A DNA stretch of 64,000 nt from Meandrina meandrites (lineage: Eukaryota; Cnidaria; Anthozoa; Scleractinia; Meandrinidae), in assembly GCA_963693305.1 (NCBI GenBank), contig OY855908.1, positions 35,962,305-36,026,304 of the forward strand. The letters run 5' to 3'. Each line of letters starts with the position of its first letter. Positions within the stretch are counted from its first letter, which is position 1. Position numbers and translations under genes: made by a program. The notes beneath the pieces were generated by a model. That model saw only the letters and a program-made list of their open reading frames with translations, ran no database searches and was not told where the DNA came from. Positions 6,007 to 57,200 of this stretch are shown piece after piece.

Positions 6007-6042
6007 GCAAATACTTCTTAAATCTCATTTACTTAGTTCAAA

Positions 6043-6089: not shown

Positions 6090-6235
6090 TTTCTACTCTT
6101 ATGAAAAAAAAAAAACACTTTGATTAACTTGTTATGTTTAATATTGTCAAGCACTTCACAGGACGGCCTTCACATAAAATTGGAGGACGAATACTGCAAA
6201 CGCCTCTTTTGTTTTGTGGATGCAATACGCGCTCT

Positions 6236-6462: not shown

Positions 6463-6479
6463 CGCCTATTTCGAAGTGA

Positions 6480-21711: not shown

Positions 21712-21727
21712 TTTTAGACATGATAAA

Positions 21728-26262: not shown

Positions 26263-27177
26263 GCGACGGATCCATAGAACCTTTTCAACAATTTAAACAA
26301 TAATCTAAAATGCGTCAGTTGGAAAGTGAATTAATCAGAAATTGAACTTTGTCAACCAAGTCGATTTGGTAAATTGGTCACTGGAAAAAAGTTTCAAAAC
26401 TGAACTTTGCAATTTAATAGCTCATTCGCTCTGACGAATTAATGTATGATGGCTAATTTACCACATGAACCCAGTTGATGCATCCAAATTTTGCGCATCC
26501 TTTTGTTGCCGTTGAGAGTATTTTTTTATCCTGAATTTCAATAAATACGAATAATTTTAGTTACACAAGTCAAACGATGTGTCTTGATTTATAAATACGT
26601 TACCATCTAGTAGTCTGCAAACGTTTTTATTTTCTTTCCTTCTCGTGTCTACAACAGAATTTTTCAAGATTTTTTCACCACTCCCCACCCTCTTCCAAAA
26701 CAAATATGATTCGTCTTTAATTAATAGCGAGCTACAAATGGCAATCAAGCGTTCAATTCAATGAAGAATTAAAATCGACCAAACTAAATATCTCGAATGT
26801 CACGCGCAAATATATATATTGTGGTTTAATCCTTTGGGTTTAATTTTTTTTACTTTCTATGGTGTGAAAATTTTTGAACCATACAAAGATGAAATTAAAC
26901 CACATGTACTTGATTTTTTTGCCAATCTAATTGCAATTACGACGTCTGTGGCAAACAGCCTAAAAAGCTGTTTGAACAGGTGTTTTGAACTAAAATGCTA
27001 TCAGTTAGCTTTTAAATCATAAATTGCTTGGGGGCTTGCGGATTTAAGACCTCAAGACAAATGATTTTAAGGCCTTTAGTAGAACAAAAATAACGTGTCC
27101 TAGCAGGTTAACAAACCAGATATAGAGAAAACATCATTTGTGAGAAAAACAACTGAATAAGAACCTGAACTACGAGG
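26263..27177 (+). other. 5' flank of GPCR copy 2
   Basis: Paralogous to 29,820-31,110 (shared ACTTAGGCATACAGCGACGG-type start, ATGTGTCTTGATTTATAAAT, and GAAAACATCATTTGTGAGA just before the gene). This should hold the promoter. No reliable TATA box was picked out. No gene seen. Confidence 0.6.
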
Positions 27178-28089
27178 ATGTCGGCAAACATGAACACAAC
27201 GACGAATGGTACACAGCCAACGAGTTGCATCAATCCTACAGCAGAAAAAATCGGAGAAACCGTCGCTTATTCCGTGATGTTTGTTGTTTCGATGGTTGGA
27301 AACATCTTCATCGGAATAATTGTCTACAAGACGAAAACTATGAAAAAACCCATCAACTTTTTAATCGTAAACATGGCCATGTCCGATCTGCTGTTTCCAA
27401 TTTTCCTAATCCTGCGTGGTCTAACTAGGTCATACGTCGACTCCCGGCTGATCAGTGGCAAGGTCGTGTGCAAGCTGGTTGCTTTTCTGTCACAAGTCTC
27501 TTGTGCTGTCTCCACTCAGAGCCTGGTTCTGATAGCAGTGGATCGATTTGGAGCTGTGGTATTTCCTCTCCGTTCCCCACTCATCAGTTCAAAGCTGTGC
27601 GCCTTCTTCATTCTCGCCACTTGGATCGTCGCCATTGCTATGTTATCTCCAAACCTTTTGTCGCATAATTGTCCATGGCCTTACACCGCGTCATTCGATA
27701 ACTTTTCTTTAACAAAATACGTTATATTCCTTGATATTCCATTAGTGGTGATAGCTATTCTTTACACTATTATTTATTTCAAGCTTAAATCACAGACGAT
27801 TCCAGGCGAGCAAACGGTCAATGCGAGACGGCAACGCGAGACAAGAGAACGAAATGTGTTGAAGATGGCCATTGCTATTGTGTTAGGGTTTGCAGTATGC
27901 TGGCTGCCCTACAGTGTCGCGTGGATTCTGATCCTCTTTGTATCAGACATATGGTCATGTAGCTTTCAATGCTTCTGGTTAGTTGCCAATATTTTGGCTT
28001 ACGCAAATTGTGCTATAAATCCTTGCATCTGCTTTATTTTCAGTGGAAATTATCGCCAAGCACTAAAGAATCTCTTTAAATGCTTTTGA
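27178..28089 (+). CDS. Class A (rhodopsin-like) GPCR, tandem copy 2
   Basis: 303 residues, intronless, all seven TMs. The N-terminus MSANMNTTTNGTQPTSC has Asn-glycosylation-type sites and one Cys. TM1 GNIFIGIIVYK, TM2 NMAMSDLLFPI, TM3 starts after VCKLVAFL and ends VDRFGAVVFPL, the second extracellular loop carries the partner Cys (SHNCPWPY), TM6 CWLPYSVAW, TM7 NCAINPCICF, tail QALKNLFKCF. DRF and NPxxC replace DRY and NPxxY in every copy, so they are family traits, not decay. The short tail ends in Cys-Phe. Ligand unknown. Confidence 0.92.
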   Translation: MSANMNTTTNGTQPTSCINPTAEKIGETVAYSVMFVVSMVGNIFIGIIVYKTKTMKKPINFLIVNMAMSDLLFPIFLILRGLTRSYVDSRLISGKVVCKLVAFLSQVSCAVSTQSLVLIAVDRFGAVVFPLRSPLISSKLCAFFILATWIVAIAMLSPNLLSHNCPWPYTASFDNFSLTKYVIFLDIPLVVIAILYTIIYFKLKSQTIPGEQTVNARRQRETRERNVLKMAIAIVLGFAVCWLPYSVAWILILFVSDIWSCSFQCFWLVANILAYANCAINPCICFIFSGNYRQALKNLFKCF

Positions 28090-29860: not shown

Positions 29861-31117
29861 TAATCTAAAATGCGTCAGTTGGAAAGTGAATTCATCAGAA
29901 ATTGACCTTTGTCAACCAAAGTTTCAAAACTGAGCTTTGTTATATAGTTATTTAATAGCTCATTCGCTCTGATGACTTAATATACAGATACATGATGGCT
30001 AATTTTCTACATGAAACCAGATGACGCACTCAAATTTTGCACGTCATTTTCTTGTTGTTGTTGTTGTTTTTATCTTGAATTTCATTCAATAAATGGGAAT
30101 AAATTTACTTACACAAATCGAACGATGTGTCGTGATTTATAAATACGTTACCATCTACTACACTGCAAACCTTTTTATTTTTTATTCTGATGTCTGTATT
30201 GTTATTTACCTGTGTTCCGCTGTCTTTTTGGGTCCTTTTGAAGCGGTTTGAATCAGTTTCAAATATCATCTGAAGTTTCCATTATTATTCTGATTATTTA
30301 CTCGAGTTTCTATTACCACTAACTATTAGCTCTCCTCGGATGGGAATCTCGTGTTTCAATTTAACTGCCACGAGAAGAGAAAAGAGACCCTCTCTTTTCC
30401 TCTCTCTCCCCAGAGTTAATAGTTAATAATAATGAAAACTTGAGATGTAACACGCGCGTCGTATTTACGAAGCGACGCGACAGACCAGATGATATTAGAA
30501 ACTTGCAAGGTAAACCGTCTTCGCTCTCATTCAAACCGCCTCAAAAGGACCCAAAGAGACACCTTAACAATGGTAAATAATAATATTCTTGTTTTAAAAA
30601 TGACTACGCACGTAATTGCTAAAACAGCGTTTGGGTACCCTGTGCAGGATTCTTATCAACATAAATGTCTCGAATGCACTCGCAAATGTATATGCTGGGG
30701 TTTAATTTTTTTTTTGGCTTAAAATTTTGTCAAACCAGTTTGATTTTTATTTGATTCTTCATTGTCCCATATTCATTATCATAATCTAAAACAAGGGGAA
30801 ATAAATATTAAACTGTTGAGCAAAAATTTTAAACGAGATATCAATTTAAACCACAGACGTGATTGACAACTTAATTGCGACAGCGACTTTCGTGACAAAC
30901 AGCTTAAAAGGCTGTTTTACAGGTGTTTAAACTAAAATGTGATCAGGTAGATTTATTTCATAAATTGCTTGGGGGACACAAGATTTTGAGGTCTTCAGTA
31001 GAACATAAATAACGGGTGCTTGCATGTTAACCAAACGGGTGTAGAGAAAACATCATTTGTGAGAGAAACGGCTGAATAAGACCCTTAGCCTGTGTACAAC
31101 CGTCTCGCTCCTGAACT
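29861..31117 (+). other. 5' flank of GPCR copy 3
   Basis: Parallel to 26,263-27,177 but longer, mainly because of an inverted-repeat insertion at about 30,193-30,595. The last 100 bp (GAAAACATCATTTGTGAGAG then GGCTGAATAAGA) match the flank of copy 2. Confidence 0.6.
30193..30595. mobile_element. Inverted-repeat MITE, ~0.4 kb
   Basis: Left arm contains TTTTTGGGTCCTTTTGAAGC and the right arm its complement CCTCAAAAGGACCCAAAGAG. Inner arms CTCGAGTTTCTATTACCACT and ATAATAATGAAAACTTGAG also pair. The paralogous flank of GPCR copy 2 lacks it. Target duplication not resolved. Confidence 0.7.
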
Positions 31118-32059
31118 ATGAGAATGTCGGCAAACATGAACACAACGACGAACGGAACTCAGCCATTGAGTTGTATCAATCCTACAGCAGAAAAAATCGG
31201 AAAAACCGTCGCTTATCCCGTGATGTTTGTTGTTTCGATGGCTGGAAACATCATCATTGGAATGATTGTCTACAAGACGAAAACCATGAGAAAACCCATC
31301 AACTTTTTGATCGTAAACATGGCCATGTCCGATCTGCTGTTTCCGATTTCCCTTTTTCCACTTGTTCTAACAGAGTTGCACGTCGACTCCTGGCTGATCA
31401 GTGGTCCTCTTGGCCAAGCCTTGTGTAAGCTGGTTGCTTTTTTGCCAGAAGTCTCTAGTGCTGTGTCTATTCAGAGCCTGGTTCTGATAGCAGTGGATCG
31501 ATTTGGAGCTGTGGTATTTCCCCTCCGTTTCCCACTCATCGGTTCAAAGCTGTGCGCCTTCTTCATTCCCGCCACTTGGATCGTCGCCATGGCAATAGTA
31601 GCTCCAAACCTTTTGCGTTCCCAGTTAAAATTTGAGTGGTGTCTATCGCCGTACTCCGCGTCATTCGATTATTTCTATTTAACGAAATACGTTATATTCC
31701 TTGATATCCCTTTAGTGGTGATAGCCATACTTTACACTATCATCTATTTCAAGCTAAAGTCACAGGTGATTCCAGGCGAGCAATCGGCCAACGCGAGACA
31801 GCAACGCGAGACAAGGGGACGAAATGTGCTGAGGATGGCCATTGCTATTGTGTTAGGGTTTGCAGTATGCTGGCTGCCCTACAGTATCGCGTGGATTCTG
31901 TCCCTTTATGTATCAGACATATGGTCGTGTAGCTTCCAGTACTTCTGGTTAGTTGCCAATATTTTGGCTCACGCAAATTGTGCTATAAACCCTTGCATCT
32001 GCTTTATTTTCAGTGGAAATTATCGCCAAGCACAAAGGAATCTCCTTAAATGGTTTTGA
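31118..32059 (+). CDS. Class A (rhodopsin-like) GPCR, tandem copy 3
   Basis: 313 residues if the first Met is used. A second Met two codons later (MSANMNTTTNGTQ) matches the start of copy 2 and is probably the true start, giving 311. It is about ten residues longer than copy 2, through PLGQA before the TM3 Cys (ALCKLVAFL) and RSQLKFEW in the second extracellular loop. VDRF, CWLPYSIAW and NPCICF are kept. The tail is QAQRNLLKWF, where the penultimate Cys is Trp. Differences cluster in extracellular loops, which would fit ligand diversification. Confidence 0.92.
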   Translation: MRMSANMNTTTNGTQPLSCINPTAEKIGKTVAYPVMFVVSMAGNIIIGMIVYKTKTMRKPINFLIVNMAMSDLLFPISLFPLVLTELHVDSWLISGPLGQALCKLVAFLPEVSSAVSIQSLVLIAVDRFGAVVFPLRFPLIGSKLCAFFIPATWIVAMAIVAPNLLRSQLKFEWCLSPYSASFDYFYLTKYVIFLDIPLVVIAILYTIIYFKLKSQVIPGEQSANARQQRETRGRNVLRMAIAIVLGFAVCWLPYSIAWILSLYVSDIWSCSFQYFWLVANILAHANCAINPCICFIFSGNYRQAQRNLLKWF

Positions 32060-32850: not shown

Positions 32851-35077
32851 TGTAGATAATTTCTCTTTCCTCTTTCCTCTCTAATATTTTATTAATTCAA
32901 TAAGTATTATTTTAGGTCACTCGTATTTCAAAACCTGCTTTTTAGCTACATCCGATTTGAAAGCTGTTTTCTGTTATTTTTCTAACTTTTTTCATCGCAC
33001 CCCATAGCATAATGTTCACTTTATTGTATCTTTAATTTATTGTAATGTGCAATTTATTTTCTTGTAGTAATTTTAAGTAGTGCTAGTAATGTTAGTCTTG
33101 TAAGTAACTTAAGGTGACTCGATCGAAATAAATGACGCGCTGTATGCCTGTCTAAAAGCTCTAATAGCTTCTCCATTTCTGACTCGATTTCCCGGAAACT
33201 TTCGCATTTTATACGAAATTTATCGTGGAATAATATTTATGTCAATATGTTGATCTAATATTCGTTAGTTTTGCGCGATGTTACATTTATTGAACACTAC
33301 TTTTGGGATAAAATTGCTATTTACAGATAACTGAGCGCTAAGATTTCGTTTAAACTTCTGCAGTTAGCTCGTAATACAATCTTGTCATGACTGTTCAAGT
33401 TTCCGCAAAATCGTCGGAACAGAAACCCCTGTACAATTTGGACATCAAAATATTAACTCCGGGCGAACTTCGAAGTTTCCAGCGCTTCCAAATCTCACCT
33501 AAACGTACAACAACCGTAGAAAAAGAAGGTTCAATGTATCAGTTTTATTAGCTCCAAATCACATTCGGCTATTTGCAACGATGACAAAGTTTGAGCTAAT
33601 GTTATAAACTCACCTTTTTCGTTAAAATGTAGCGAAGTAGCCAAATTTACGTTTTCCTGAATTATATGAAAACTAACCGGACGAATCGAATAAAACTACT
33701 GGAACATAAAAATGAATATCTTACACACACTTTGCGCTATTTTACGTTGCTGGTGCTGCCTTGATTTGGATGAAATATATTTTTAAAGTGGAGCACTGCT
33801 GCAACTCTGTTGTGAACACGGCCATGTTGTTATTTGAATTCTACAGCTGACGTTATGTAAATTTTTTAGATTTCATGAGAATTTGAGGAATTTGCACATG
33901 GACTAGGGGGATGCATTGACAGTGTTCCGTCGCTACATGCTTTGGTTTTCCATCCAAACCATGTCAAGGAAAACAATCCTTACACAGACTTTAAAACAAG
34001 AAATGGGAAAAATCAATAAATCAATGCATATTTTGACAAAATAGCTATGCTATTAACGATGCTGACGTCGCTGATTACCCTTGCATGGCCTCAGAAATCA
34101 GAGCATATAGTGACTAAGCACTGTCAATGCACCCCCCTAGTCCATGTGCAAATTCCTCAAATTTTTATCAAATCTAAAAAATTTGCATAGCGTCAGCTGT
34201 AGAATTTAAATGACAACAAGGACGTGTTCACAACAGAGTTGAAGCAGTGCTTCACTATAAAAATATATTTCATCCAAACCAAGGCAGCTCCAGCAACGTA
34301 AAATAGCGCAAAGTGTGTGTAAGATATTCATTTAAATGTTCCGGTAGTTTTATTCGATTCGTCCGGTCAGTTTTCATATAATTCAGAAAAACGTAAATTT
34401 GGCGACTTCGCTACATTTTAACGCAAAAGGTGAGTTTATAACATTAGCTCAAACTTTGTCATCGCTGCAAAAAGCCGAATGTGATTTGGAGTTAATAAAA
34501 CTGATTCATTGAACCTTCTTTTTCTACGGTTGTTGTGCTTTTAGGTGAGATTTGGAAGCGCTGGAGCGTTCCAAACTTCGAAGTTCGCCCAGAGTTAATA
34601 TTTTGATGTCCAAATTGTACAGAGGTTTCTGTTCCGACGATTTTGCGGAAACTTGAACAGTCATGGCAAGATATTATTACGAGCTAACTGCAGAAGTTTA
34701 AACGAAATCTTAGCGCTCAGTTATCTGTAAATAGCAATTTTATCCCAAAAGTAGTGTTCAATAAATGTAACATCGCGCAAAACTAACGAATATTAGATCA
34801 ACATATTGACATACATATTATTCCACGATAAATTTCGTATAAAATGCGAAAGTTTCCGGGAAATCGAGTTAGAAATGGTAAAGTTATTAGAGTTTTTAGA
34901 CAGGCATACAGCGCGTCATTTATTTCGATCGAGTCACCTTAAGTACTGTTAGTAATGTTAGGATTGTAAGAAAGGATTTATATTGTAAGTGTCGGTATTT
35001 CTTGTAATATGTGTGTATTATAAATGGTGTTAAATAATGGCAAATAAATAAAAAAAATTCCAAAAAAAAAAAAATTG
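32390..35077 (+). mobile_element. 5'-truncated LINE with 11-bp TSD, carrying a nested fold-back element
   Basis: ATATACAATCT lies at 32,379-32,389 and again at 35,078-35,088. Between them are the end of a LINE ORF2, a 3'UTR with repeated TAGTAATGTTAG words, and an A-rich 3' end (AATAAATAAAAAAAATTCC, then an A-run). This is target-primed insertion with 5' truncation. 1,826 bp of the interval is a later fold-back element. The insertion site is the duplicated 3' flank of GPCR copy 3. Confidence 0.88.
33113..34938. mobile_element. 1.8-kb fold-back element (near-perfect ~820-bp arms) with TTAA target duplication
   Basis: From GGTGACTCGATCGAAATAAA at the left end to its complement TTTATTTCGATCGAGTCACC at the right end, the two halves are complementary for roughly 820 bp with scattered mismatches, around a unique centre of about 170-180 bp (~33,936-34,110). 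TTAA lies at 33,109-33,112 and 34,939-34,942. No transposase frame is present. A related, twice-interrupted copy of one arm lies at 47.7-50.9 kb. TTAA target choice suggests mobilisation by a piggyBac-like enzyme, which is inference. Confidence 0.92.
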
Positions 35078-35632: not shown

Positions 35633-35672
35633 TAAATATCGTATTAAGATTCTGCGCACTAGGGTTATAAGT

Positions 35673-36150
35673 TATGGAGGGGGATTTGGGACAAAAATCG
35701 GAACTGGGTCGTACCAGGACAACAATGAATCGTGTCCGCTGTCAATTTGATCATACCTCAAGGAAAATAGGTCGTACCATAAGGGAAATGGATCGTACTT
35801 CAAGGGAAACGGGTCGTACTTTTAAGGAAATGGGTCTTACCTTAAGGGCAATTGATCGCTCCTACAGAGAAACGATCGTACTTAAGGGAAATGGGACGTA
35901 CTACCAGGGAACTTTGGGTCGTACATGGAAATGTGTCGTACCTCCAGATAAATGAATCGTACTTCGGGGAACTGCAATGGGTCGTACAGAGAAATAGATC
36001 GTAACTCCGGGGAAGAATGCTCGTACCCTAGCATAAAGGAAAATGGATCGTACTTCAGTTGAACTGTACAGACATGTACGGGAAAATTGTGTCGTATCTC
36101 TAGTCTAGGAGAATGGATCGTAACGAAGAGTTATTGGGTCAGCAATCTGA
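35673..36150 (+). repeat. Left terminal inverted repeat of the 10.7-kb transposon
   Basis: Built of about twenty degenerate ~18-22-bp units of the form AAGGGAAATGGGTCGTAC with variants GATCGTAC and GGTCTTAC. The inner end is marked by TATTGGGTCAGCAATCTGAA. The open frame through it (FDHTSRKIGRTIREMD...) is a by-product of units whose length is often a multiple of three. The HECT gene's first Met may lie at its inner edge (36,113), so the repeat may also serve as promoter. Confidence 0.88.
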
Positions 36151-39100
36151 ATCGCAGGCTCGTTTTCCCTTACAACACGTGATTTCTCACCCGAGAAGAA
36201 TGCTCGGTCGATGGCGCCATGTTTTCCTGAGTTTCTGGAAGTTCGTTCTCCGATCTTACAGAAAAGTGTTCTGGACAATGTCTAAAGAGAATGATCTTGT
36301 GAGAAAAACTTCTGAGGTTTTAAGAAGGGCTCTAAGTGAGCTAGAAACAAGCGCCGAACAGAGTTGTGGAAGCGAGCAAAATGAATGCCAAAACCGCGGG
36401 CAAAGTAATCAGAGCAGTGCTACAGATGAATTTAGGTAAGTGCCCATTTATATTTCACTATTTAGACAAGCCGGCTATTTTAAGTTTGCGTAAATAAATT
36501 AAGGTAGCTCATAGCAAATCTTGCCATTCAGTAAACCTAGAGAGATGCTTATAGAGCACTATGATGTAAGCTTACAGGCAACTACAATATTCATGAATAT
36601 TACAGCTTCATACTGCATTTGCAGGAGGGCTTTTCCAGGACTTTGTTCTCGAAATGTTTCACGGCCAAGCACGTCAAGACAAAGGTCCTTGACACCACCT
36701 GTTGGAAACCCAAAGAAGAAAAAGGTTACAGGCTACAATGCACTGCACTTCCAGCCAGCGGAGACTTGGACTCATGACATATGTATTCTGGGAAGAAGAG
36801 ATGAGGCCACAACACCTGACAGAGCAAGAAGTGAGACTTTGTGCAGAGCTGGATTGGGCAGGTTACGTGTAGTTTTCCCCAATAAGAACGCTTCTCATGA
36901 TGAACTCCAAAGGTTTCTTGAAGAGAAATTCCCAAAGCTCAAGGCTGGTGGAGGTTTTGAAGTTCTTAGGGCTGTAGGTGGAGGTGGAGGGCAGAGAAGT
37001 CTCATTCCAGTACTGCCAACACGAGAGGGTTACACAGTGCCTCGCCTAAAAGAAACCTTAAGCTCGGCTGTAGGATACTTTCGACCTCTACAAGCAGATC
37101 TGGATGAATCCCCAATGGAAGTAGCTGAAGTAAGAAGTAATTAATTTCTGGATTTTTAATCTTTTGGAAAATATTTTAGAATGGCAGTTAATATTTTTCT
37201 GAGCTACTAACCATGCATGAATTTTAACCCACGTGAATATGTTTGAAGCCCACCCCCCTCCCCACCCGATTCCTCCCCACCCCCTCATTCCCTGGAATTT
37301 TGAAGTCCATGGGCATGCAGTTACAGTACATGTGCAGTACTCTGTAGTTAATAAAATTTAAATTGTTAATTTTAAACTTGTGCAAAAACTCTTTAAATTT
37401 CTCATGTGCAAATGTATAATAATGATAACTGTACACATCACAGATCACAGCACCAAATCAGCTCTCATGCTTTTATACACAGTGAATTAAATACACAATG
37501 GACAAGCAAGACTAGTGTCTTGTAAATAAAAGGTAACTCATTGTTGATTAAATGTATTCTTTAACATAGGATAAGTGTGGTGGTCCTGCTGTCAAATGCA
37601 TCCACTGTGGTGAGGATTTTCATTGGATGGAAGTAAAGGACCATGTTGATGTTTGTAGCTCTAAGCCAAACAGGTATAGTGTGAAGTGTTCATTGTTTTT
37701 GCTTTAGGAAACGTTTTTTCTTTTGGTTCTGATTTGGAGAATCTTGTGTTTACAAGAAAGAACAGATTGAAATAATTCTCAAATTGTGCAAAAATGTGGT
37801 TAGAGATTTTATTTGAATTGCATAAACAGGCACAAGCAGTTTACTTTTGGCAAAGAAACAGTTAAAAAATATATTTAAATACACTAGAAACATATTTTTG
37901 GTACTTTTTTTGCCATCCTCCAGGAGGAGGAGTAAACAAATATATTGAATTATAATTACTCTTCTTTTCAGCCAAAACAAAGGAGGCATGGCTGTGGAAA
38001 TCAAAGGGGAAAAGATTGTAGAGGTAAGGTTTGCATTTTAGTTTATTTGTTCCAAAAATGTCCCCAAATCTTCAATGCTTAGGGACCGGTCATTATTTAT
38101 GTAGGGGGGGGGGGGAGGGGGAAGGTCAAGGCTGTTTTAGATTGGCTAGAGAGGGGCTCTTTTTTTCATAAAGAATTAATAGGGGTCACAATTTTTTTAG
38201 GTTTTGCAAGGAACATGAAGGAATCGTTTGACAGGAATCTGACGGCCCTACAAACTGAATTATTTGTTTCAATATGTTCATGTCTTATTTAGATCATGTC
38301 AGGGAACTCATATGCCGTGTACATAAGTTTATCTAAATGGATTTTTGATAGCTACAATGCTGTGTTGATAATCCATGAGTTGAACTGCTGCTATATCTTA
38401 CCCAAAGTATAAGCAGGATATATCAAGTCATTGGAGCCACAAGCATTGAATCTCAAACACTGGTACAACTTCTATTCTGGTTTATATTATAATACATACA
38501 AAATACAACAAACAGCATCAGTTTCATCTCACCAAGTTTTATAGGGCTGTTTATATTCTGATTACAAAAAGACTGTTCACCTGAAATTTTTTTCGTGGCT
38601 TCTTCAATCTCCTGGCATCATAATCATTCACATTATTTTTCTTGTCGACACAAAAGTGACACTCACATGGAAGGAAAACTTCCTTTTTTCTTACTGAATA
38701 CTACAAATCTTAGTGATTTATATGATTTTCAGTGGTCAGATAAAATATGACTTTCGTTGTCCTTTTTAAAGATGTAACCTTTTTCTCATTTTTTTATAGT
38801 CAGATGATTCATTCTTAGTGGAATGTTTAAAGTGTTGTAAACTCATTCCTTGCAATAAGTTCAGAGCTCACCAGAACAGCTGTGCACCTTGTACAGTAAC
38901 AGGTCATCCCACCTCATCATCAACAACAACTCGTACAGGTGAGTGCAAAAAGCAGATTGAAATACACCAATCACAGCCCACTAGCATGACCTTCTGAACT
39001 TGGGGGCTTATTTGTGACAAACACTGGTATGCATCGTTTTTGATTGGCTCCTGTCAAACAGTACATCGAAAGGCGATGCTGAAAGATGGACATATAGTAG

Positions 39101-40636
39101 TAGGATAGCAGCTTTGCATGTGACACTGAAAGCGAGTGTGAATGACCTTCTTTCTGGTAAGAAGTACTTGACACTCATCAACTGAATTGGAAAAATGGCA
39201 ATAATGTTGGATTAATAATATGAAATGTTTTACTTAGTCAGTGTAGCTCTTCAACTTTTATTTAAAATTAAAAAGCTTATGTACCAAAAAATATTACTTT
39301 TGTAAAATTATATCACATAGATTCTCAAGACACTGCAGTGGCAGAACAGATAAGACGTGACAGAGACCTTGCAGAACAACTGCAGAATGAGGAAGTCGAA
39401 GATGATCAAGTACTTTTTCACTGTGCAGAAAAATATACACCAGATACTCCTCCCACAACACTTCTGGAGGCTCTGCAAAACATCAAGAAGTCAGTGACTT
39501 CAAGTAATCCTGGTGACATTAACTTCTATGTCCAGCGGTCAAGAGTGTGGAAAAATGTGGTGGAAGAGTTGAAAACTAGTGAGCTTTCAACCTGCAAGAT
39601 TTCTGTTGAGTTCATTGGAGAGTGTGCTGTGGATACAGGAGGGCCAACAAGAGAGTTGTTTTCTTTAGTGTACCAGCAGGTGATGGGTGGTAAGCTGACT
39701 AGAGGATCGCCACCAAATATAACATTGTCACACAACCAAGAAGCTCTAGATGCTGGTGAATATAAAGCTCTGGGACAGCTGATAGCCCTAGCATTACTAA
39801 ATGAAGCCAGTGGCCCACATTTTTTCAGTCCTACCTTTGCACACTACATTCTGGGTACAAAGTGCAACACTGACCCTTCCAACCTGGTAAATGAAATACC
39901 TGACGATCAGTGGCAGTTAAAGGAGAAGTTGAAAGTCCTTTTAAACTGTGAAGATGCTGCCAATTGGGATGATGCCATTCTACAATTTGAGGAACGGTTT
40001 GACATGGGGATCACCAAAGCAAAGATAAATATGGAGGAGAGGAATGATGTCATTAAGGCCACCAATAAGCACATCATGATAAGCAGTGTTGCAGAGGAAA
40101 TCTTCAGTTTCCAAGAGGGACTGGGAACGTTTGGAGTTTTGGATGCCTTGAGGCAATACCCAGACGAGAGTGTGAAGCTCTTTATTTACTCACCGGTGAC
40201 CATCCAAGATATCAGGAAAACATTCATTCCAGAGTTTTCCATTGTTGGATCATCCAAACGGCAGTGTGAAGAGACAATAGTCTTTAACTTCCACCAGTTC
40301 CTTAAGCAGTGTGACAAAGGAAGTGTCGAACGAAGTTTCATTGATGTTACCTCCTTGGAATCCCTAGTCACTGAGGAGGATATCAAGGAAATTCAACTGA
40401 CCTTACCAGATGTCCTACAGTTTCTGACTGGTGCCAGAAACATACCTCTAGGAGGACTAGACGGAAGCATAGTTTTTAAGCATGATGCTTTTAAAGGTGC
40501 CAGAGTTAGAGCCAATAATTGTGCACTACAACTGATCATTCCTGTAAATGAAAGATATTATTGTGAGGAGCCTGCAAAATTCGTTTCAAATTTTGCTGAT
40601 GACATTTGCGATGGCCAAGGCTATGGCCAAGTTTAA
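36113..40636 (+). CDS. Zinc-finger/HECT E3 ubiquitin-ligase-like protein, six exons, inside the transposon
   Basis: Exons 36,113-36,435, 36,625-37,129, 37,570-37,673, 37,972-38,023, 38,800-38,938 and 39,321-40,636 join in frame to 812 codons. All introns are GT-AG (GTAAGT, GTAAGA, GTATAG, GTAAGG, GTGAGT donors). Exon 2 encodes a conserved-looking block (NASHDELQRFLEEKFPKL, GGFEVLRAVGGG). Exons 3 and 5 each carry Cys/His zinc-binding patterns (CIHCGEDFHWMEVKDHVDVC; CLKCCKLIPC...HQNSC). A charged UIM-like stretch follows (RRDRDLAEQLQNEEVEDDQ). The HECT domain starts with VEFIGECAVDTGGPTRELFS and ends with RVRANNCALQL, keeping the catalytic Cys (about residue 775). It would transfer ubiquitin to unknown targets. 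The start is uncertain: Met at 36,278 is an alternative. Confidence 0.85.
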
Positions 40637-41603
40637 CACTGAACATGTAGAACATGAAGTTTATCAGCAGCGTCAGTTGTGTTAGGTATTTTCTTTTGTG
40701 AGCAATCAGACAGTAGTTTCATGTAGTCTGTAGCAACAGTTTGTTGTTTCAGGTTTCAGTAACAGAGGATCGATGTACCTGTTTTGAGTTTTGCTATCAA
40801 GTATTTATGTTGAAGGTTAAATCAATTCTTAGGCTGAATCTGTTTTCAACGTAGGTTTATCTGTTTCGACATGAAGATAACAGTCTTTGTATCAGTTAAA
40901 CAATTTAAGTTTAACTATTGTGATTTCTTTTAATGAATTGTTTTAAGTGATTAAAAGAGTGTTATTGACATTTTCAGAATGAAACAGATAAACCTAGGCT
41001 GAGAACATTATTTCACCTGAAAACACCTGACCCACAACATGTATTTCTATTGATGTTTAATCTATTGTTGTTAAAAGAATTGATCAATTTAAAGGCTGTC
41101 AAGTTGTTGTTGCCAAGATAAAATACTTTTGATAGTTTTAGTGAAAATTGTTCCACAACATATATCTTTAATGATGTTTTTAATGTATTGTTGTTATAAG
41201 AATTGATAAGTTGTTGTTGTCAAGACATAATACTTTTGATGAGCAAAAGAAAGCAGTTGTTAGTTCTATCACTTTTAGTATTGCCTAGAAATCACCACTA
41301 GTACTTTAAAAAGTGCATTTAAAGATAATGAGTACTTGGATCTGGAATCTGTCTTCAGTTGGCTCTTATGGAATTGTTCATGTTTGCCATGGATAAAGTT
41401 ATTCTGTTGTGCTCCCACCACCTACCCCACCTTGCATGCTTTTCTTTGGTTGGTATTCTTCAGGACTTGCCAGAAATATAAAAAGCCTTACTGTTACAGC
41501 ATTCTGGTGTACACAAACACTGAACCCCTCAAACAGCCATGTGTAATTTTCCCCAGGTATAAAAAATATATTATTTGCAAACACAGCAGTTGAGAAGCTA
41601 CTC

Positions 41604-44108
41604 TTCATCTATTATTTGCTACAAAGCAGCAAGCATCAATGTATAGTTCAATCCCAAATCCATCAGCCTCCTGAAGTGGGTCAATGTTTTCTTTGAGATC
41701 ATCCAATTTCTCATCTGTGAGTGGGCATGAAACATCATCTATCCAAACATTACTTTCTGGCTGTGGCTCAGTGATTTCTTCAGAACAATCTATCCCATAT
41801 TGACTCCAGTCCTGGTGAAAGACAATACCAGGGTTGATGTCATGCACTTGTTTTTGACTCCCATGGTGACTCCCATGCAACTTTTTGCAAAGTTTAAAAA
41901 AAATTCCTGGAGCTGTTTCAGAGCCACCTTAAATTTTCGAAAATTTTAGGCAGCTCCAAAACACCTCCACGGAATATTTTAAACTTTGCAAAAAGTTGTA
42001 CCTTAACATGCTGATGATTATTCAATAATAAAACATGGGGGTCACTGTACTCATTTTTGAGTTATGCACACTTAAAGCTAAGATTAAGGGTGTTTTTAGC
42101 AGGTTATACTGTTGCTATGTTTACCAGTGACCCAAGAAAATAACTACAATTTGTTTATCAATGATTGGGCACTGACCCATCAACGTATGAGAGCTGAAAA
42201 GTGCTGAAAACATTGTGATCCTCCTTATGTTAATACAACCAATTGAAAGAGGTTGTCATACCTGTGGTGGTTGTTGTTGAATTTCCCTTGCTGAAGAGTC
42301 GAGACTTTGTGAAATGTCATACAGACCTCTTAACCATAGTTGGTTTGGAGATTTGTTCCTCTCTGATCTTATGGGATGATTATCCCAGCCACTTACAAAG
42401 TGTTCGAGGTGTCTGTTGATCCGGGGCAAAAACACATACTGTAGGCAGAACATGTGGATATCATTTCCCAAATCCAAATAGCCGGCTTCTTCCAAATAGC
42501 AAAATAGAGAATAATAGATATACAGGCAGCCTACAAAGAGATCACGCCAAAGTCTTTCAATGCGTTGATTGTGTACACTAGGCCCAGTGATAAAACTCCC
42601 ACGGTTTGGTCCTCGCAAAGGATGTGTCAACATGTACCAAGCACTGTCAACATTTTCTACTCCTTGATCAGCCCTGACCCTAGAAGGCAATCCATGAATT
42701 GAAACAGCTCTCTCAAACACCTTTAAGACTGTCCCTGATTTGTTGTTACAGTTGCAAGAAAGATACATTATTTTTCTTGAATAGCCATCAATGGCACCGT
42801 GTATAACAAATCCCCATCTGAAAAAGATGGAGAGAGAGATATTGAATAACCTGATTAAAAAAAACACAATGTCTACACTTGGGTATCAAAATTCCTGGAC
42901 TTAAGAGGATGATGCTTTTCCTTTTTAAAAAACAGAATTTTACAAGAAAAGCCATTGCTAACAAATTCTTTATACACCAGGGAGTTCATTAAGGTGCGCA
43001 GAAAAGAGCACAAGGTAGCAAATTTCTTTATGTTCTATTTGAATTATGAAAGTAGGCGGGTGCTGACTCTTGTATATCCTATGCTGTTACCCAGGTCCCG
43101 CCTTCTAATGAGAACCCTAAATACACTACAGTAGAATCCTGTTTTCTCAGACCCTTAGTTTTGCAAAACACTGGACTTCTCAAGCCAATTTTCGCTTCTC
43201 TTGGATAGTACTTCTCTGTAACTTTACCCCGATTTCTCAAACCTTTCGATCTCTCCAACCAATTTCTACTGTATTAATACTACAAAAAAAATATGAATTG
43301 GGGATTATACATCAACCCAAACTGAATTTTTAATTATCAATAGATTAGTATTATAATGTAGTTGTTCCAACCTAATAAGCTTATGGTTCCCATCCATATG
43401 CCACAATGCCAAGGGTCCTCTAACATTATAGACTCTTCTATGAGTGACTTTCAGTTGAAGGGCTCGAATTACAATACCATCTGGATCCACTCTCCTCATT
43501 GATTCTCTAACTCTGTATTCCTGTATTTTAATACCTTTGGAAAGCAGATGACCACGCATCATTTTGTAGCCACAGTTTGGAAATTGCTGACAAATGTCTC
43601 TTACAGTAATGTCAAGAGAAGTGTCACTTATATCAGAGTAGGTGCTCCTTACTGAAATACCAAACTCTTGGAGACGTCTGTGGATAGTTTTTTCACTGAC
43701 ACACAACATCTTTGCTATATCACTTGCTTTGAAACCATAGTCCAAAAATAACTCCAGCTGGTCTTGTGGTATGTAAAACCTTGGCCTCCCTCTTTGACAT
43801 GATCTATCTAGGCCGGGTAATCTTAAATTGTTGGGCTCAACATTATTCTCAAATTGCATGAGAAGATGCCTAGCATCTTGCAGAAGTTCAAGTAACCTTT
43901 CTTCTCTGCTGAAGCTGCTTGCAAAACGTACTATCAAAGAAATTAACCAGTCTATTTTGTAAGTTGCATAGTCAATGATGTTTCCACAGGTCTCATTATT
44001 CTCTATGTGTCGCAGAACATCTTGAATTACTTGTCTTGAGTTATTTGAAAGTAACTCCTGTGGGCTATTATTTTGACCTTCACCCTGAAAACTTGTGGAA
44101 GACATCAC
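41604..44108 (-). CDS. DDE integrase-type transposase of the 10.7-kb element (split, 2-3 exons)
   Basis: Exon 1 (44,108-43,372) has an N-terminal helical region, a helix-turn-helix ([19 protein letters not shown]) and the first catalytic Asp in [11 protein letters not shown]. Exon 2 (42,817-42,262) continues across the splice as [19 protein letters not shown], then VRADQG with the second Asp and [10 protein letters not shown] with the Glu, giving D-D-E. The join restores KLIRWGF exactly (acceptor TTTTTCAG; donor GTTGGA is weak). A likely third exon ends at 41,605 ([40 protein letters not shown]). Its acceptor is unclear because a ~120-bp hairpin element sits there. The catalytic triad is intact. 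Confidence 0.8.
41878..42000. mobile_element. Hairpin element near the transposase last exon
   Basis: CAACTTTTTGCAAAGTTTAA is mirrored by TTAAACTTTGCAAAAAGTTG at the other end, about 120 bp in total, with inner complementary GGAGCTGTTTC/GGCAGCTCC words. It lies where the acceptor of exon 3 of the transposase is expected and may disrupt it. Confidence 0.7.
43129..43274. mobile_element. Short TA-flanked MITE in the transposase intron/flank
   Basis: TA-CAGTAGAAT at the left and TTTCTACTG-TA at the right make ~9-10-bp inverted ends with a TA duplication. The interior has repeated TTTCTCAGACC/TTTCTCAAACC words. This resembles Tc1/mariner-pogo-type MITEs. It lies within the intron between transposase exons 1 and 2. 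Confidence 0.6.
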
Positions 44109-44181
44109 TCCTGTAGTATAGAGATTAAAAGTTTAGAAGTAATTTGTGGTTAAACTTTTTAAATCCTCAATTAACTGTTTC

Positions 44182-44182
<1 letters not shown>

Positions 44183-44257
<75 letters not shown>
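44183..44257. repeat. (ATCA)n microsatellite
   Basis: About 18 copies of ATCA/CAAT immediately upstream of the transposase start. Confidence 0.97.
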
Positions 44258-44258
<1 letters not shown>

Positions 44259-44259
44259 C

Positions 44260-45640
44260 AAAAAACCATTAACTCAAAACCTTTTCAAATTAACACAATG
44301 AGGGTAAAAGCAAGATTGCTTGATGGACTGTGTATAAATAGAGTGACTAAGGTAAAAAAATGCTAAACTAATCCCTAGATATTCTAAAAATACTAGTAGA
44401 TATAATCTGTTCTTGGTAAAAAAAATCTTAAACCAATGTGTTAATTATTTCCTTTGTCCCAGATTGTAATGATCACATACAGATAAAATTGAAACTTCCA
44501 ACATCCATCCCCAGGCAACCCTTGGGCATTTGAACTTTTGGTTGATCAAATTCCCATCCCTAGGGTAAAAAATTGTGTTCAAATGCCCTAGCTAATGGGC
44601 AAATTTGTCGATCAAATTCCCCTGCCCCGGCTTGGGACATACAGTATATGGGAAAAATAAGCAATAGGACAGAAGTGTATTTCTTTTCAGAGTTTGACTT
44701 ACATGTACTTGCAAAATATTCATAACTAAACAATATATTTGACTTTAAATGCAGAACACACAGGCCATGATGTCACAAGAGAAAAATCCTCTACCTTCTC
44801 ATCTCCACCATGATTTAATTTAGGAGCTGCCTCTAATGTAACAGTAAAAACCGCAAGAAATTATAGACACAAAGTCGAGGCAATTTGCTGAAATCCCCAC
44901 CACCCCTTCACATATAATTTAAAATTCCCCACCCCAATAACAACTATTGAGGTCAAATTCCGACCCCCTGGGCACAATGATGAGTCAAATGGCCACAGTA
45001 TGCCCTCCGGTAGGGGGATGTTGATTGATTGGTTAATTGACAACTTTATTGAGAGAGGGTGGCATGTAACAGAAAATTTCTGATGAGCTTGTGGCCCTCT
45101 ATTTTAAAACAATTACAATGTGATTTGATCAGTACATGAAAGTATAAAGCAGTTAGAAAACAGATATGCAGCAAAGAAATAAATTGTGCTATTCCAGAAA
45201 ATATCCATACCCTACTACCAAAGGTTTTTTGGTTTCAGTCCCCCACCCCTCTGGAAATTCCAGTTAAGCCCCAATGCTGGTTTGTGGCTGAGGTCACAGC
45301 AGCCATTGTGGTGAACTAGAACAAAGCACTTTCCTCCGCTGGGAACTTAACTCTTTTATCATGCAAATTCTGCAAAACAAATTGATCTTCCATGGGATGG
45401 GGATGGATATTTTCTGCATTTCCCTTCACGCACTGTAATTGACCCTTTTTGGGAAAACTGTGTCGATGTAAAAGCCTATATATCACGGGTTAACAAATCA
45501 CACAGAATACAGAGTACAAGTATAATACAGTAAATACGCCAAAAAGTGGGCATATAATGTTTTACACAGCATATTAAAGTGAAATTATCAACGAGTTATT
45601 ATTTGTATTCCTGAAACTTTCACCTCTCATCTTTGGAAAA
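44260..45640. other. Inner region of the transposon, no gene seen
   Basis: Non-coding on both strands. It contains the word GGGCATTTGAACTTTTGGTTG and related repeats that I could not delimit. It would hold the transposase promoter. Confidence 0.45.
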
Positions 45641-45745
45641 ATTAAAATTTTGAACTGTTTCAGGAATTTCCCGAGGTTAAAATTTTTCAAAACTCGACGT
45701 TTCGACCAGTTTTAGTAGTCTTCCTCAGGTTGTTGTAAAATGTTT
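45640..45745 (-). ncRNA. Hammerhead-ribozyme-like motif
   Basis: On the minus strand: CCTGAGGA, a hairpin GACTA-ctaaaac-TGGTC, then GAAACGTC. This order (CUGANGA, stem II, GAAA, GUC) is that of a minimal hammerhead. The stem is short with a G-U pair, and stem I/III pairing cannot be checked with confidence. Penelope-like elements and related repeats are known to carry such motifs, and this is probably a remnant of one inserted in the transposon. Confidence 0.4.
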
Positions 45746-45999
45746 TCAATATGGCAGATCGTTTCAAATAATTGAAAACAGTTATTAAGCTTATTTGTTT
45801 ACTGATATTGAAACATTGAATAATCCGCAATTTTCTACTTTTGTTTGTTTTTCAAATTAAAGACATGAAGAGCAAGCAAACACATATAAATGTTAATCTC
45901 AAACGGACTTACCTAGATTGTGCTTTCTTGAAGAGAACTTCGACTCGAAACGCACTCGAAACGACTCGAAACAGCTACTCGAAACAATATGGCGACGAG

Positions 46000-46386
46000 A
46001 GGCAGAGAGCCTGCGGTTCTGACTGCTGACCCAATTCCTCTCCGGACGCTCCATTCCCCTTGAGGTACGACCCATTTCTCTTCTAGGTCCGCTGTATTAT
46101 GATCCATTTCCCTGGCGTTACGATCTATTAACCCGTACGACCCAGTTCCCCTGAAGTACGATACATTCTATTCGGCGGTACGACACATTTCCATGTACGT
46201 ACCATTTCCTTATTTGATGATCGACCCATTTCCCTAAAAGTACGACCCGTTTCCCTTGAAGTACGATCCATTTCCCTCATGGTATGACCTATTTTCCTTG
46301 AGGTATGATCAAATTGACAGCGGACACGATTCATTGTTGTCCTGGTACGATCCAGTTCCGAATTTTGTCCCAAATCCCCCTCCATA
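46000..46386 (-). repeat. Right terminal inverted repeat of the 10.7-kb transposon
   Basis: The minus strand repeats the left end nearly base for base for the first ~150 bp, then with fewer GGTCGTAC units than the left arm (one block of about four units is missing). It ends at AATTGGGTCAGCAGTCAGAA, the counterpart of the inner mark on the left. Arm length therefore differs by unit gain or loss. Confidence 0.88.
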
Positions 46387-46597
46387 ATAAGTTTGCGTTA
46401 CATCTGTCAAAATTCTATTGTTTCGCGCCGTAATACGATAAGAAACAGGACGCGACAGCACGTAGGTAAAACAAAAAAATATCCTTGGTATCGAACTCTG
46501 TGCTAAATAGGCTATGAAGAGCGAGCAAAATTAAATTCTACAATATAGAACGACTAGAACGAGCGGATATGTTTCGACCGACAAAGCCTACCGTTAA

Positions 46598-47721: not shown

Positions 47722-47925
47722 TTGCAAATAGGCGAATGTGATTTGGAGCTAATAAAAGTGATACATTGAACCTACTTTTTCTTTGGTTGTTGTGCTTTTG
47801 GGTGAAATTTGTAAGCGCTGGAGCGTTCCAAGCCTCGAAGTTCGCCTGTAGTTAATATTTTGATGTCAAAACTATACCGGGGTTTCTGTTCCGAAAGAGT
47901 CCGGCATAGCAAGATGTTATTACTT
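47722..47925. mobile_element. Fold-back element, arm fragment 1 of an interrupted copy
   Basis: Collinear with the right arm of the 33.1-34.9 kb element from GGCGAATGTGATTTGGAGCT to about GCAAGATGTTATTAC. It continues at 49,590 and again at 50,742. Divergence is clearly higher than between the two arms of the complete copy. Confidence 0.85.
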
Positions 47926-49589: not shown

Positions 49590-49706
49590 CAATAGTTTAA
49601 ACGAAATCCTAGCGCTCAGTTGTAAATACCAATTTTATCCAAAAAGTAGAGTTCAATAAAAGTAATATCACACAAAGCTAACGGACATTTCATCAACATA
49701 TTGACT
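49590..49706. mobile_element. Fold-back element, arm fragment 2
   Basis: TTTAAACGAAATCCTAGCGC to ACATTTCATCAACATATTGA continues the arm from fragment 1, offset by the upstream insertion. Confidence 0.85.
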
Positions 49707-50741: not shown

Positions 50742-50860
50742 GACATGCATGCATATTATTCCTCGATAAATTGCGAAAGTTTCAGGGAAATCGAGTCAGA
50801 AATGGTGAAGTTATTAGAGTTTTTAAACAGGCACACAGCGCGTCATTTATTTCGGAAGAG
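50742..50860. mobile_element. Fold-back element, arm fragment 3
   Basis: CGATAAATTGCGAAAGTTTC to GCGCGTCATTTATTTCGG, the outer part of the arm. The terminal GATCGAGTCACC is replaced by unrelated sequence, so the end is lost. Confidence 0.85.
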
Positions 50861-54200: not shown

Positions 54201-57200
54201 TCAATCAGCGACCTTGCGAAAAACATTTCGGTCGGATTTCACAAAGAAACTGTCAATTTGTGATCCAAGACAGCAACAACTCACGCGGATATTGGGAACG
54301 CGCCAAAGTCGCGCGAAATATCACCAACAGCAACAAATACATTCTAAATACAGAAAGTAAAAATACCTCGATGTAAACGTTCGGTAATGCATTCAAAACA
54401 AGTCTTCTAATACATCTAATGCCGAAGTAATGTCCACCACATCAAAAAAACTAACAATCCTGTCGTGTCGGTTTCCAGGTCGAGTCCATATTTTCCGAGC
54501 CATGGAAGGTTTTTGATAAAAACAGACTCTGTGTACTCCAAATCGATTTCCCTGGCACAAATTTCTTTCAGACTTTCCAAAGAACAGATACAAGCGATTA
54601 CGAGAACGCCGAAATGTTCATTATTGTACAATGTTTATACTGTCTTATCAATCGAAGAAGAGGAATAGAAGCGACGGTTCCGCTTTGAACAGCGCTTGTT
54701 CTGCAATAATTTCCGGCACCAGGCCTATGTGTTCAATTCCTGGAGTGGCGTAGTAGTTGAAAATTTCAGAAGCAGCCTAGAAAAATAATAAAAGGTATGA
54801 GAGAAGAGTAAAGATCGACATATGTTTCGAAAGAAACAAACAAGCCAGACGTAAGAAGTAACACGTGCGGACGTGACAAAATACCTCCACTGCCCAAGTT
54901 CAGCTTACCTCAAGTGCTAATTCGCATCTCGTTTGGAGCTGTATTCTCTCCCTGCAAAAGCAAGATATCTTCTACTTTCACTCCTTGTGCCCAGTTAGAC
55001 TCCAACTACCAGTGCCACAAAACATTTCTTCTCGGTAGGCGACAGCAAACAACTGTTGCAGACAAACATTTCCTAATCTGTCGCCCCTCGTGTCGTGGAT
55101 AGCAGCAGTCACTCTTGAAGGGCAGTTTCATCGATTCTTTCGACGTAATATACTTTACAATTATAATATATAATATGTATGTATTCGAAAAATATATAAT
55201 AAATAGGTTTGTTGAAAAATACGACAAGACTCGCTCATAAAAGGGCCAGAAAGTTCAGAGCTCCGATCGCAAATCCAAGATGGCGCCGCATGAAGGTCGC
55301 GCTTGCTACAAGTTTTCCGTTCTAACTTTTGATTGGCGCATAGGACAATGCTAAAATTTGGCCGTGAGGGGGATAACAGGGGCATGGGGAAAACTACGTG
55401 AAAAAATGTTGTTTATGTCGAGATTTTCTTGTTTTTTTCGGCGATTTTTTGATATTGACCAATCACATGCGCCGATTTAATTGAAATTAATCATTAAGAT
55501 TTAACACCTTTTAATCGATTTTGCCGTTGGCCTGCCTAGTTCTTACGCGGATCATAACTTAAATTATAAATACACACGAATAACCTTAAATGCAATATGA
55601 GAGATTGCAAACTGAAGTGGAGAAAAATATCATTGATTTACACAGCTTTTACAAGATATGCTTTTGAATGACATTTTATTATCAATCTTGTAAATTGTAA
55701 ATTTGTATGATAAATCTGTACAACTGGTTAAACTTGTTTGTATGACCACCTGTCATGATACAATGCCTTGGTCGACCTGAAGGGACTATCAAGAAAGGCA
55801 TCAAAAATTGTTAATGCAAGTAGCTATTCATGCAATGTCGTTTTATGAGCATTTGACTGAAAAACAAGGCAGACTGGCAAGTAAGTTGAGGGGGGGGGGG
55901 GGGGGGGGATTTTCGTGATGCCGTGATCCATTTTTTTTGTGCTCTGTGAATCGTGATTTGATGAAAAATTGTTCTGTGAATCGTGATTAAAGCGTATTTT
56001 GTAAGGCATGCACTCACTTATCAACAAAAAACCTTTAAAAATTGAACTGTAACCAGGGTATGACATGTTAAAAGAGTAAAAAAGCGTTCTCTGGTTAAAA
56101 AGTTTAAGAAAATATAAGCTTTCGGCTATTCTACTATAGCCTTTAACGAATATGAAGAATAGTAAGCGCGTGGTTGGAAATATATGCAGGGGAGGGTGTG
56201 AAAAGATTAAAAACTAAAAATACAATAGAAGTGTGAAAAGCTAAAAAATGGACTAACGAACAAGTAAAGATTACAATAAAATAGAATAACAAGTAAAAAT
56301 TACAATAAAATGGAATATTGTCTTGGTAATGGTTTAGAATTGTTATCGGCGCCGACAGTTTTGGCAGTATGCCAAGATTCTAGAGTTCTTCGAACACGGT
56401 GATTGCCTTTGTCTATCACAGTAGCACCCTCAAAGTCAATAGAATGATTGTTATGCCAAGCATGGTTGGCAATGTTCGAGCCTCTCGTATAGTTTTTAAG
56501 ATTTCGCTGATGTTCCTTTCTTCGGGTTTTAAAACATCTGCCAGTTTCTCCTACATAAGACCAACTGCAGTCAGCGCACGGAATTTTGTAGACAACATTG
56601 CATTGGAGATCCAGGGGCTGCCTGAACTTAGGAGAAGGAAATTCTTGTTGCAAGGTTTTAGCTGGTTTACTTACAACACGAATGTCATTTTTTTGCGGAG
56701 TAATCTGGTAAGAGGTTCAGACAGTCCGCGGATGTAGGGAAGACATGCGAAACCCATGGATGTGTCTGATGGATCGGCCCATTTGAAGAACATGGACACC
56801 AATTCTTCTGGTGGAGGAGTTGTTGGAGCTGACTTCTTTTTTAAAATGTTAGAAATAACTGTTGATGGATAGCCATTGGCTGTCAATGCTTCCGTAACGT
56901 GACTAGTCTCGCGCGCTTTTCCTTCACAGGTGCTAGGTAGGTTGGCTGCGCGGAATAAGAGAGTCGAGGCCGCACTGACTTTATGTTTTGTTTCATGATG
57001 TGAGGAAAAATCCAGATATCTATCTGTGTGTGTCGGCTTCCGGTGAACGTCGATGACAGCAACACCATTTTTCCTGGAAACCAGGGTGTCCAAGAAAGAG
57101 ATTTGGCCATTGTTTTCTTCTTCGATAGTAAAAACGATTTTGGAATCAATGGAGTTTAAGGTGTCATGAAAGGAGGAGACAGCGTCTTTCTTAATGATGA

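Follow-up and report, generated by a model that had tools for sequence, protein, structure and literature searches.

An intact IS3EU-type DNA transposon with a resident HECT gene in the genome of Meandrina meandrites

The element and its two genes

Positions 35673-46386 of the window (the whole stretch of 64,000 nucleotides that was analysed) are occupied by an intact IS3EU-type DNA transposon of 10,714 bp, which carries two convergent spliced genes: one for a DDE integrase, the other for a protein that combines C2HC fingers with a HECT domain. The element has the termini TATGG..CCATA and sits between two copies of the target-site duplication ATAAGT (35667-35672 on the left, 46387-46392 on the right). 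Its left terminal inverted repeat (TIR; 35673-36161, + strand; TATGGAGGGGGATTTGGGAC...) contains 21-bp-spaced repeats and 14 TCGTA motifs, every one of which points inward, as do all eight in the right TIR (46007-46386, - strand; TACGA on the + strand). Over their outer 165 nt the two arms show 97% complementarity, the gapped inverted repeat spans 489 and 380 nt, and the 21-nt terminus, at up to three mismatches, occurs twice in the 64 kb as against none in 100 shuffles; the exact 6-bp duplication and matching TIRs proposed in the first-pass annotation are thus borne out.

The integrase gene, on the - strand, has three coding exons that together encode 498 amino acids: exon A (43372-44105) supplies the HTH region and the first catalytic Asp, D238; exon B (42262-42817) the rva_4 core with D295 and E332; and exon C (41605-41811) the C-terminus and stop. 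A putative 5' exon on the same strand (45913-46060, its upper end being arbitrary) has a donor, AG/GTAAGT, at 45913 and an acceptor before 44110. The protein matches Pfam rva_4 with E=6e-79, no HHCC motif was reported for it by the Pfam scan, and the D238-D295-E332 triad agrees with the intact D-D-E set, in a spliced gene convergent to that for HECT, described earlier. Across a 28-row alignment the first Asp is kept in 26 rows (one gap, one Asn), the second in all 28, and the Glu in 27 (one Lys); the modelled structure of one relative, P0003, matches retroviral intasomes and IstA.

The HECT gene, on the + strand, comprises six exons with GT-AG introns, and its 812 codons contain no internal stop. 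Exon 1 (36113-36435) offers three candidate start codons (36113, 36200 or 36278), and overlaps the left TIR if the first is used. Exon 2 (36625-37129) encodes a conserved N-terminal domain (GGGFEVLRA...GYFRPLQADL) that has no Pfam match. Exon 3 (37570-37673) and exon 5 (38800-38938), on either side of the short exon 4 (37972-38023), each encode one C-x2-C-x11-H-x3-C finger, and two such motifs together occurred in none of 2000 shuffles. We take this spacing to be that of UBZ4-type ubiquitin-binding fingers; the Pfam scan gave no match to the fingers, and a search of solved structures returned nothing firm.

Exon 6 (39321-40636) encodes the HECT domain, the candidate catalytic Cys775 and the C-terminus GYGQV, followed by the stop. 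It matches Pfam PF00632 with E=2.8e-10 (40.8 bits, curated cut-off 23.9), and all 13 rows of the family alignment match HECT (E up to 0.01). Weak second-domain profile alignments place the candidate Cys at the position of the catalytic residue of TOM1, AREL1 and HUWE1, and this Cys is kept in all ten rows that reach it, the window included (the other three lack the region). The residue before it is Asn in the window and Thr in only five of these ten rows, Thr being the residue in the solved HECT structures (TOM1, AREL1, HUWE1), and the fold predicted for the exon from the 13-row alignment is a poor model (mean pLDDT 42). The earlier description of a zinc-finger/HECT protein with an intact catalytic Cys and an 812-codon frame stands, resting on the PF00632 match and on the register of the Cys in those weak alignments.

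Copies, divergent relatives and recurrence of the pair

A search of the same 551-Mb genome, whose count is a lower bound, recovered at least ten TIR-bounded elements of this family, the window element included, each flanked by a different exact 6-bp duplication (10/10). Eight are of about 10.7 kb, one of 8.56 kb and one of 1.35 kb. The seven other full-length copies differ from the window element by 0-3 substitutions over some 10.7 kb (each copy's two pieces summed), with all three integrase exons exact in 7/7; because such near-identical copies lie at different sites, we infer that the element moved recently. Each of the nine long copies (again counting that in the window) retains an open HECT exon, at a rounded identity of 100%, and eight have an intact integrase: the 8.56-kb copy has lost its integrase but retains HECT. 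Both genes are missing from the 1.35-kb copy, and HECT is accordingly not needed in cis. The check that had been suggested, whether HECT and integrase are found together inside these TIRs at insertions whose 6-bp flanks differ, was run with a positive outcome, and HECT did not prove to be a single-copy orthologue, which would have counted against residence; there are many HECT loci in the genome. Outside the near-identical copies, the closest HECT relative in the genome has 35% identity.

The same arrangement recurs in two divergent elements, both with convergent pairs and their own 6-bp duplications. The second element (C12:24236047-24245823) has the duplication AGTGAT, the termini TATGG..CCATA, the TIR TATGGAGGGGGATACTGG and 28 and 20 inward TCGTA motifs at its two ends; the third (C10:4196381-4202413) has the duplication TACCAG, the termini TACGG..CCGTA and a 316-nt TIR of 97%. 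Their HECT proteins are 35% and 25% identical to that of the window, and integrase identities among the divergent pair-bearing elements run from about 30 to 66%. The HECT protein of the second element has one C-x2-C-x11-H-x3-C finger and a CUE-like stretch, and shares 53% identity over 186 residues with the N-terminal domain encoded by exon 2. Throughout the HECT family of these elements, the Cys is retained and the reading frames stay long and open.

Genome-wide, an integrase lies no more than 8 kb from 24 of the 31 HECT relatives, convergent in every case, and the remaining seven show no integrase match within that distance. When HECT relatives and Pfam HECT matches are merged into 80 loci, 43 have an integrase match within 8 kb, all 43 convergent, against a random expectation of 0.109 on average and two at most (1000 shifts). 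Seen from the other side, and among the matches listed, a convergent HECT lies within 8 kb of 43 of the 130 merged integrase loci, which means that the partnership is not universal; the unpaired loci may reflect decay, divergence or HECT-less lineages. Since the pair recurs in copies, in divergent elements and at 43 of the 80 HECT loci, HECT is an old resident gene in part of the IS3EU-type group, as the first-pass annotation had proposed in calling it a resident component.

Beyond this genome, the protein database yielded 2203 integrase relatives and, among the candidates scored, 12 HECT relatives. The viral contigs scanned held no relative and the prokaryote genome contigs scanned held no HECT; the latter did contain integrase on three short contigs catalogued as a sponge symbiont, but at that length they can neither reveal TIRs nor exclude a HECT partner. 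An open-frame integrase on a short sponge-associated contig had no HECT frame in the available 1.0 kb downstream.

A working model and its alternatives

Synthesising these observations, we consider the window element to be an IS3EU-type DNA transposon that moves autonomously by cut and paste, and the recurrence of HECT makes us close to certain that it is a resident second gene of this lineage; for the overall explanation we would put the probability at roughly 0.8. Judging from its family, TIRs and duplications, the integrase would use its HTH region to bind the subterminal array of inward-pointing TCGTA motifs, excise the element and reinsert it by a 6-bp staggered strand transfer. HECT would most likely serve as a ubiquitin ‘read-and-write’ helper, with either the transpososome or host factors as its target. 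We suggest, tentatively and with some doubt, that its C2HC fingers read ubiquitin and its HECT domain writes it at the element's own chromatin, such that the bound integrase/strand-transfer complex might be cleared, or a host silencing or repair factor removed, with the effect of helping the element to move. More broadly, it is plausible, if at somewhat short of even odds, that one entire lineage of animal IS3EU transposons operates with two genes, a HECT specific to these transposons and equipped with ubiquitin-reading modules serving as working partner of the transposase by clearing the transpososome or disarming host defence.

HECT could instead act on the host, removing silencing or DNA-repair factors. 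There is a precedent in the TET/JBP genes of fungal IS3EU elements, which PMC12730594, in the part available, proposes as a means of evading silencing, and the possible ubiquitin-reading modules N-terminal to HECT would suit such a role; the evidence is, however, equally compatible with the transposase as target, and we regard a host target as rather unlikely.

Self-limitation is common among transposons, and an E3 encoded beside its would-be substrate makes a natural feedback; HECT might, then, ubiquitylate the integrase for degradation and so limit copy number, with which the finding of at least ten TIR-bounded copies would be consistent. Near-identical copies at many sites point instead to recent activity, and on the sequences at hand we judge restraint of this sort unlikely.

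Decidedly improbable is that HECT is a host gene captured once by the window family, with no role in transposition. Passive exchange of TET/JBP passenger genes between fungal transposons has been described (PMC12730594, in the part available), and two thirds of integrase loci lack a HECT partner at the search sensitivity used; a single capture nevertheless sits poorly with the same convergent pair in elements so diverged in both proteins, each with its own TIRs and duplication, with the one orientation common to 43/43 linked loci, and with the maintenance of long open frames and the Cys across the HECT family.

A spurious pairing, in which two chance repeats happened to enclose a host HECT gene of no relation to the element, has a negligible probability given the TIRs, duplications, multiple copies and two divergent elements, and a chance or host-gene origin of the pairing is ruled out by the copies with TIRs and 6-bp duplications together with those divergent elements.

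Were the two-gene reading true, a transposon-borne ubiquitin system would have long evolved alongside its transposase. The recurrence points to HECT ubiquitin ligases as an enzyme class that animal cut-and-paste transposons carry as a conserved accessory, and the near-identical, apparently recent copies provide material for testing its role. Some of the isolated ‘HECT’ gene models annotated in animals could be transposon genes, and transposon HECTs may be a source that hosts could domesticate into HECT genes of their own.

Relation to known systems

The window HECT resembles the HECT E3 ligases E6AP, HUWE1, AREL1 and TOM1 in its N-lobe sequence, the register of the catalytic Cys and an aromatic residue near the C-terminus, but is distant from the solved enzymes (best relatives at E of about 1e-5 to 1e-3), is transposon-encoded and has its own N-terminal domain. 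In RAG1, a RING E3 part is fused to the transposase and is not a separate HECT gene. The open-licence literature searched, which probably does not extend to Repbase Reports, contained no HECT-bearing transposon of this kind.

As described in the accessible parts of the respective sources, RAG-like transposons (PMC7204232) also place two convergent genes, one of them the transposase, between TIRs, but their transposase is of a different type and its partner is RAG2-like; Intons (PMC3520738) are likewise IS3EU-derived transposons that have gained conserved extra proteins, but encode five to six proteins and occur in fungi, ‘HECT’ appearing nowhere in the part available. The IS3EU/GingerRoot superfamily (PMC10045372, as far as its available text goes) shares with the window element the TA..TA termini (here TATGG..CCATA), the 6-bp duplication and an integrase-like DDE transposase, and lacks the HHCC motif; it is presented there without a HECT gene, the main text containing neither ‘HECT’ nor ‘ubiquitin’. 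IS3EU elements carrying passengers are already known, with alpha-kinase and TET genes in fungi, from the available part of PMC12730594, a source whose main text likewise contains neither word. The rust families described there have TAYGG..CCRTA termini and 6-bp duplications, and the TET-positive IS3EU elements of rust and truffle fungi, like the window element, set the transposase opposite a second enzyme gene; they differ in that this gene is an alpha-kinase, accompanied by a TET/JBP dioxygenase, and in that their hosts are fungi where ours is an animal.

Architecture of the element and its genes

The first-pass annotation had placed a complete transposon at window positions 35673-46386 with ATAAGT on either flank, and these boundaries proved exact. 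Its termini are TATGGAGGGGGATTTGGGACAAAA; the outer 165 nt of the left and right ends are 97% complementary, and a gapped inverted repeat reaches 489 nt into the left end and 380 nt into the right. Both ends carry repeats, spaced by 21 bp and centred on the word TCGTA, which occurs 14 times on the left and 8 on the right, always pointing inward (0 in the opposite orientation), and once in the interior; when each 500-nt end was shuffled 1000 times by mononucleotide, the highest counts were 3 and 4. These inward repeats are predicted binding sites for the integrase.

The HECT gene (+ strand) has 6 exons, GT-AG introns and an 812-codon frame, its first exon overlapping the left terminal inverted repeat (TIR) if the start lies at 36113. 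The N-terminal domain of the protein draws no Pfam match. The protein also carries a pair of C-x2-C-x11-H-x3-C fingers, a stretch that we take to resemble the ubiquitin-interacting MIU motif and a HECT domain, supported by Pfam at E=2.8e-10 and by PDB matches to E6AP, TOM1, AREL1 and HUWE1. Cys775 aligns with the active-site Cys of TOM1, AREL1 and HUWE1 in profile alignments, although, taken alone, these second-domain matches are weak. The integrase gene (- strand) has 3 coding exons encoding 498 aa (rva_4, 6e-79; triad D238-D295-E332), and the model of a related integrase, P0003 (mean pLDDT 80), finds retroviral intasomes and the IstA transposase as structure matches. The two genes are convergent, with 968 nt from stop to stop.

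Database relatives of the integrase number 2203; the named ones among the best 120 include octocorals, stony corals, hydrozoans, sponges, acorn worms and fish, and the best named hits point to a cnidarian as the source of the window. For the HECT protein there are at least 12 (47-98% identical), the scored set being the 7,996 candidates with the most shared words; in a 13-row alignment that includes the window, the catalytic Cys is kept in all 10 rows reaching its position, and the same 10 have Tyr or Phe as the fourth residue from the C-terminal end. A Stylophora pistillata protein named as a PIF1 helicase (P0002) shares the N-terminal domain, at 65% over 111 residues. It also has a CUE-like stretch that falls short of the cut-off and, by eye, a HECT-like motif, and it resembles a gene model in which transposon pieces were fused. 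Short contigs of a bacterial MAG filed as a Cycloclasticus symbiont of a sponge (L001-L003) also carry IS3EU-like integrase genes, of which one has an open frame of 441 aa; these contigs are probably sponge DNA.

Elsewhere in the window, positions 7173-16322 (- strand) hold an uninterrupted 3049-aa stop-to-stop frame that includes about 20 tandem 402-bp units; Pfam recognises Ricin_B_lectin in 20 places along it, and its C-terminal part is apolipoprotein-L-like. Three rhodopsin-like GPCR frames that resemble one another lie at 21704-22618, 27169-28089 and 31115-32059 (all +). A long inverted repeat at 33107-34944 (arms 380 and 480 nt, 92-96%) has inverted matches at 47722-47894, 49621-49705 and 50766-50854, and a perfect 279-nt inverted repeat at 56140-58045 has arms that mostly enclose a reverse-transcriptase frame (56671-57801, -; RVT_1 3e-7).

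Copies and divergent relatives

In the 551-Mb assembly of 56 contigs that contains the window, the left TIR has at least 20 matches, pairing into at least ten elements. An exact 6-bp duplication (TSD) flanks 10 of 10, every one different: ATAAGT in the window, and ACTTTG, AGTCGC, TAAAGC, CTTGGC, CCTCTC, CATGTG, GAGAAC, AAAGCC and CGTGTC at the others (for AAAGCC, the left side was read directly from the sequence, since one TIR base deviates there). Eight of the ten, including the window copy, are ~10.7 kb long; the other seven of these differ from the window copy by 0-3 substitutions and by indels, which reach 20 gapped bases in a single piece; all seven have identical integrase exons, and the HECT exons are all exact in four, with 1-2 substitutions in the remaining three. 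Since the copies are near-identical, we infer that the family has moved recently. An 8.56-kb copy has lost the integrase, and kept HECT, through deletion of about element positions 6013-8159, and a 1.35-kb copy (in locus L040, C14:6821330-6823280; TSD CGTGTC) is a fold-back of two inverted right ends, possibly the seed of a non-autonomous family.

The first-pass annotation had held that a resident HECT gene would be contradicted by other copies consistently without it, or by its being a single-copy orthologue in species without the element; this is answered by the HECT exon (437 aa), whose frame stays open in all nine long copies, each with a different TSD, the remaining HECT exons being checked for stops only via identity to the window.

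The best HECT match outside these copies (35% identical) resides in a second element of 9,777 bp (C12:24236047-24245823; TSD AGTGAT; ends TATGGAGGGGGATACTGG). Its TIR is perfect over 476 nt (a 477-nt match includes one flanking base), with repeats that differ from those of the window element and TCGTA again inward, 28 and 20 times. Its integrase segments are 66, 51 and 45% identical, and its HECT gene, again convergent to the integrase, encodes an N-terminal domain 53% identical to the window's over 186 residues, one C2HC finger and a CUE-like stretch whose score of 17 bits (E=0.0046) is under the Pfam cut-off of 21.1. A third element (C10:4196381-4202413, 6,033 bp; TSD TACCAG; ends TACGG..CCGTA; 316-nt TIR, 97%) pairs a 692-aa HECT frame, whose HECT part is 25% identical, with a convergent integrase (31% identical; rva_4 2.6e-29). 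On C1, a fourth locus has a HECT frame with stops and, convergent to it, an integrase fragment of just 51 residues (E=2e-5).

Genome-wide linkage of HECT and integrase

Among the 31 genome matches to the window's HECT exon, 24 have an integrase within 8 kb, convergent in 24 of 24; the seven unlinked relatives include the integrase-deleted 8.56-kb copy and the C1 fragment locus. The integrase rows number 144, from 150 scored of 186 candidates, and are a lower bound. The 101 genome rows of the Pfam HECT family, among which HECT genes of the host itself should be present, were then added. Once rows up to 8 kb apart were merged, there were 80 HECT loci, with an integrase within 8 kb at 43, all 43 convergent; in 1000 random shifts the number of linked loci averaged 0.109 and never exceeded 2. 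Seen in reverse, a convergent HECT partner within 8 kb accompanies 43 of 130 merged integrase loci. TIR and TSD inspection was confined to the ten family members and the two divergent elements. HECT is thus a standing gene in part of this transposon group; from the other two thirds it may have been lost, be hidden by decay or always have been absent.

The same genome has other sets of equally scoring integrases, such as seven sites that share E=5.3e-44 and have 266-aa frames; six of the seven lie no more than ~0.4 Mb from an end of C9 or C10. This suggests further recently multiplied families, which perhaps favour contig ends.

A possible role for HECT, and known systems

The structure of the element, its recurrence, the near-identical copies and the kept catalytic Cys are directly supported. 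We infer that the integrase would move the element by cut-and-paste, that the HECT protein may ligate ubiquitin, and that this activity could benefit transposition; we favour a ‘read-and-write’ helper that might act at the element's own chromatin, through either turnover of the transpososome or transposase or removal of a host factor. As one copy kept HECT without the integrase and another has neither, the protein, if it acts at all, is suggested to act in trans.

In Repbase, IS3EU forms a superfamily whose ends are TA..TA and whose TSDs are usually 6 bp long (PMC10045372). PMC12730594 gives termini of TAYGG..CCRTA for rust IS3EU families; in TET-positive fungal IS3EU it places TET/JBP in the interval that separates the transposase from an alpha-kinase gene of opposed orientation. 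A 2012 meeting report (PMC3520738) mentions ‘Intons’, which derive from IS3EU and have five to six proteins, as well as transposons with host-derived conserved proteins. The open-licence literature searched yielded no HECT-bearing transposon of this kind.
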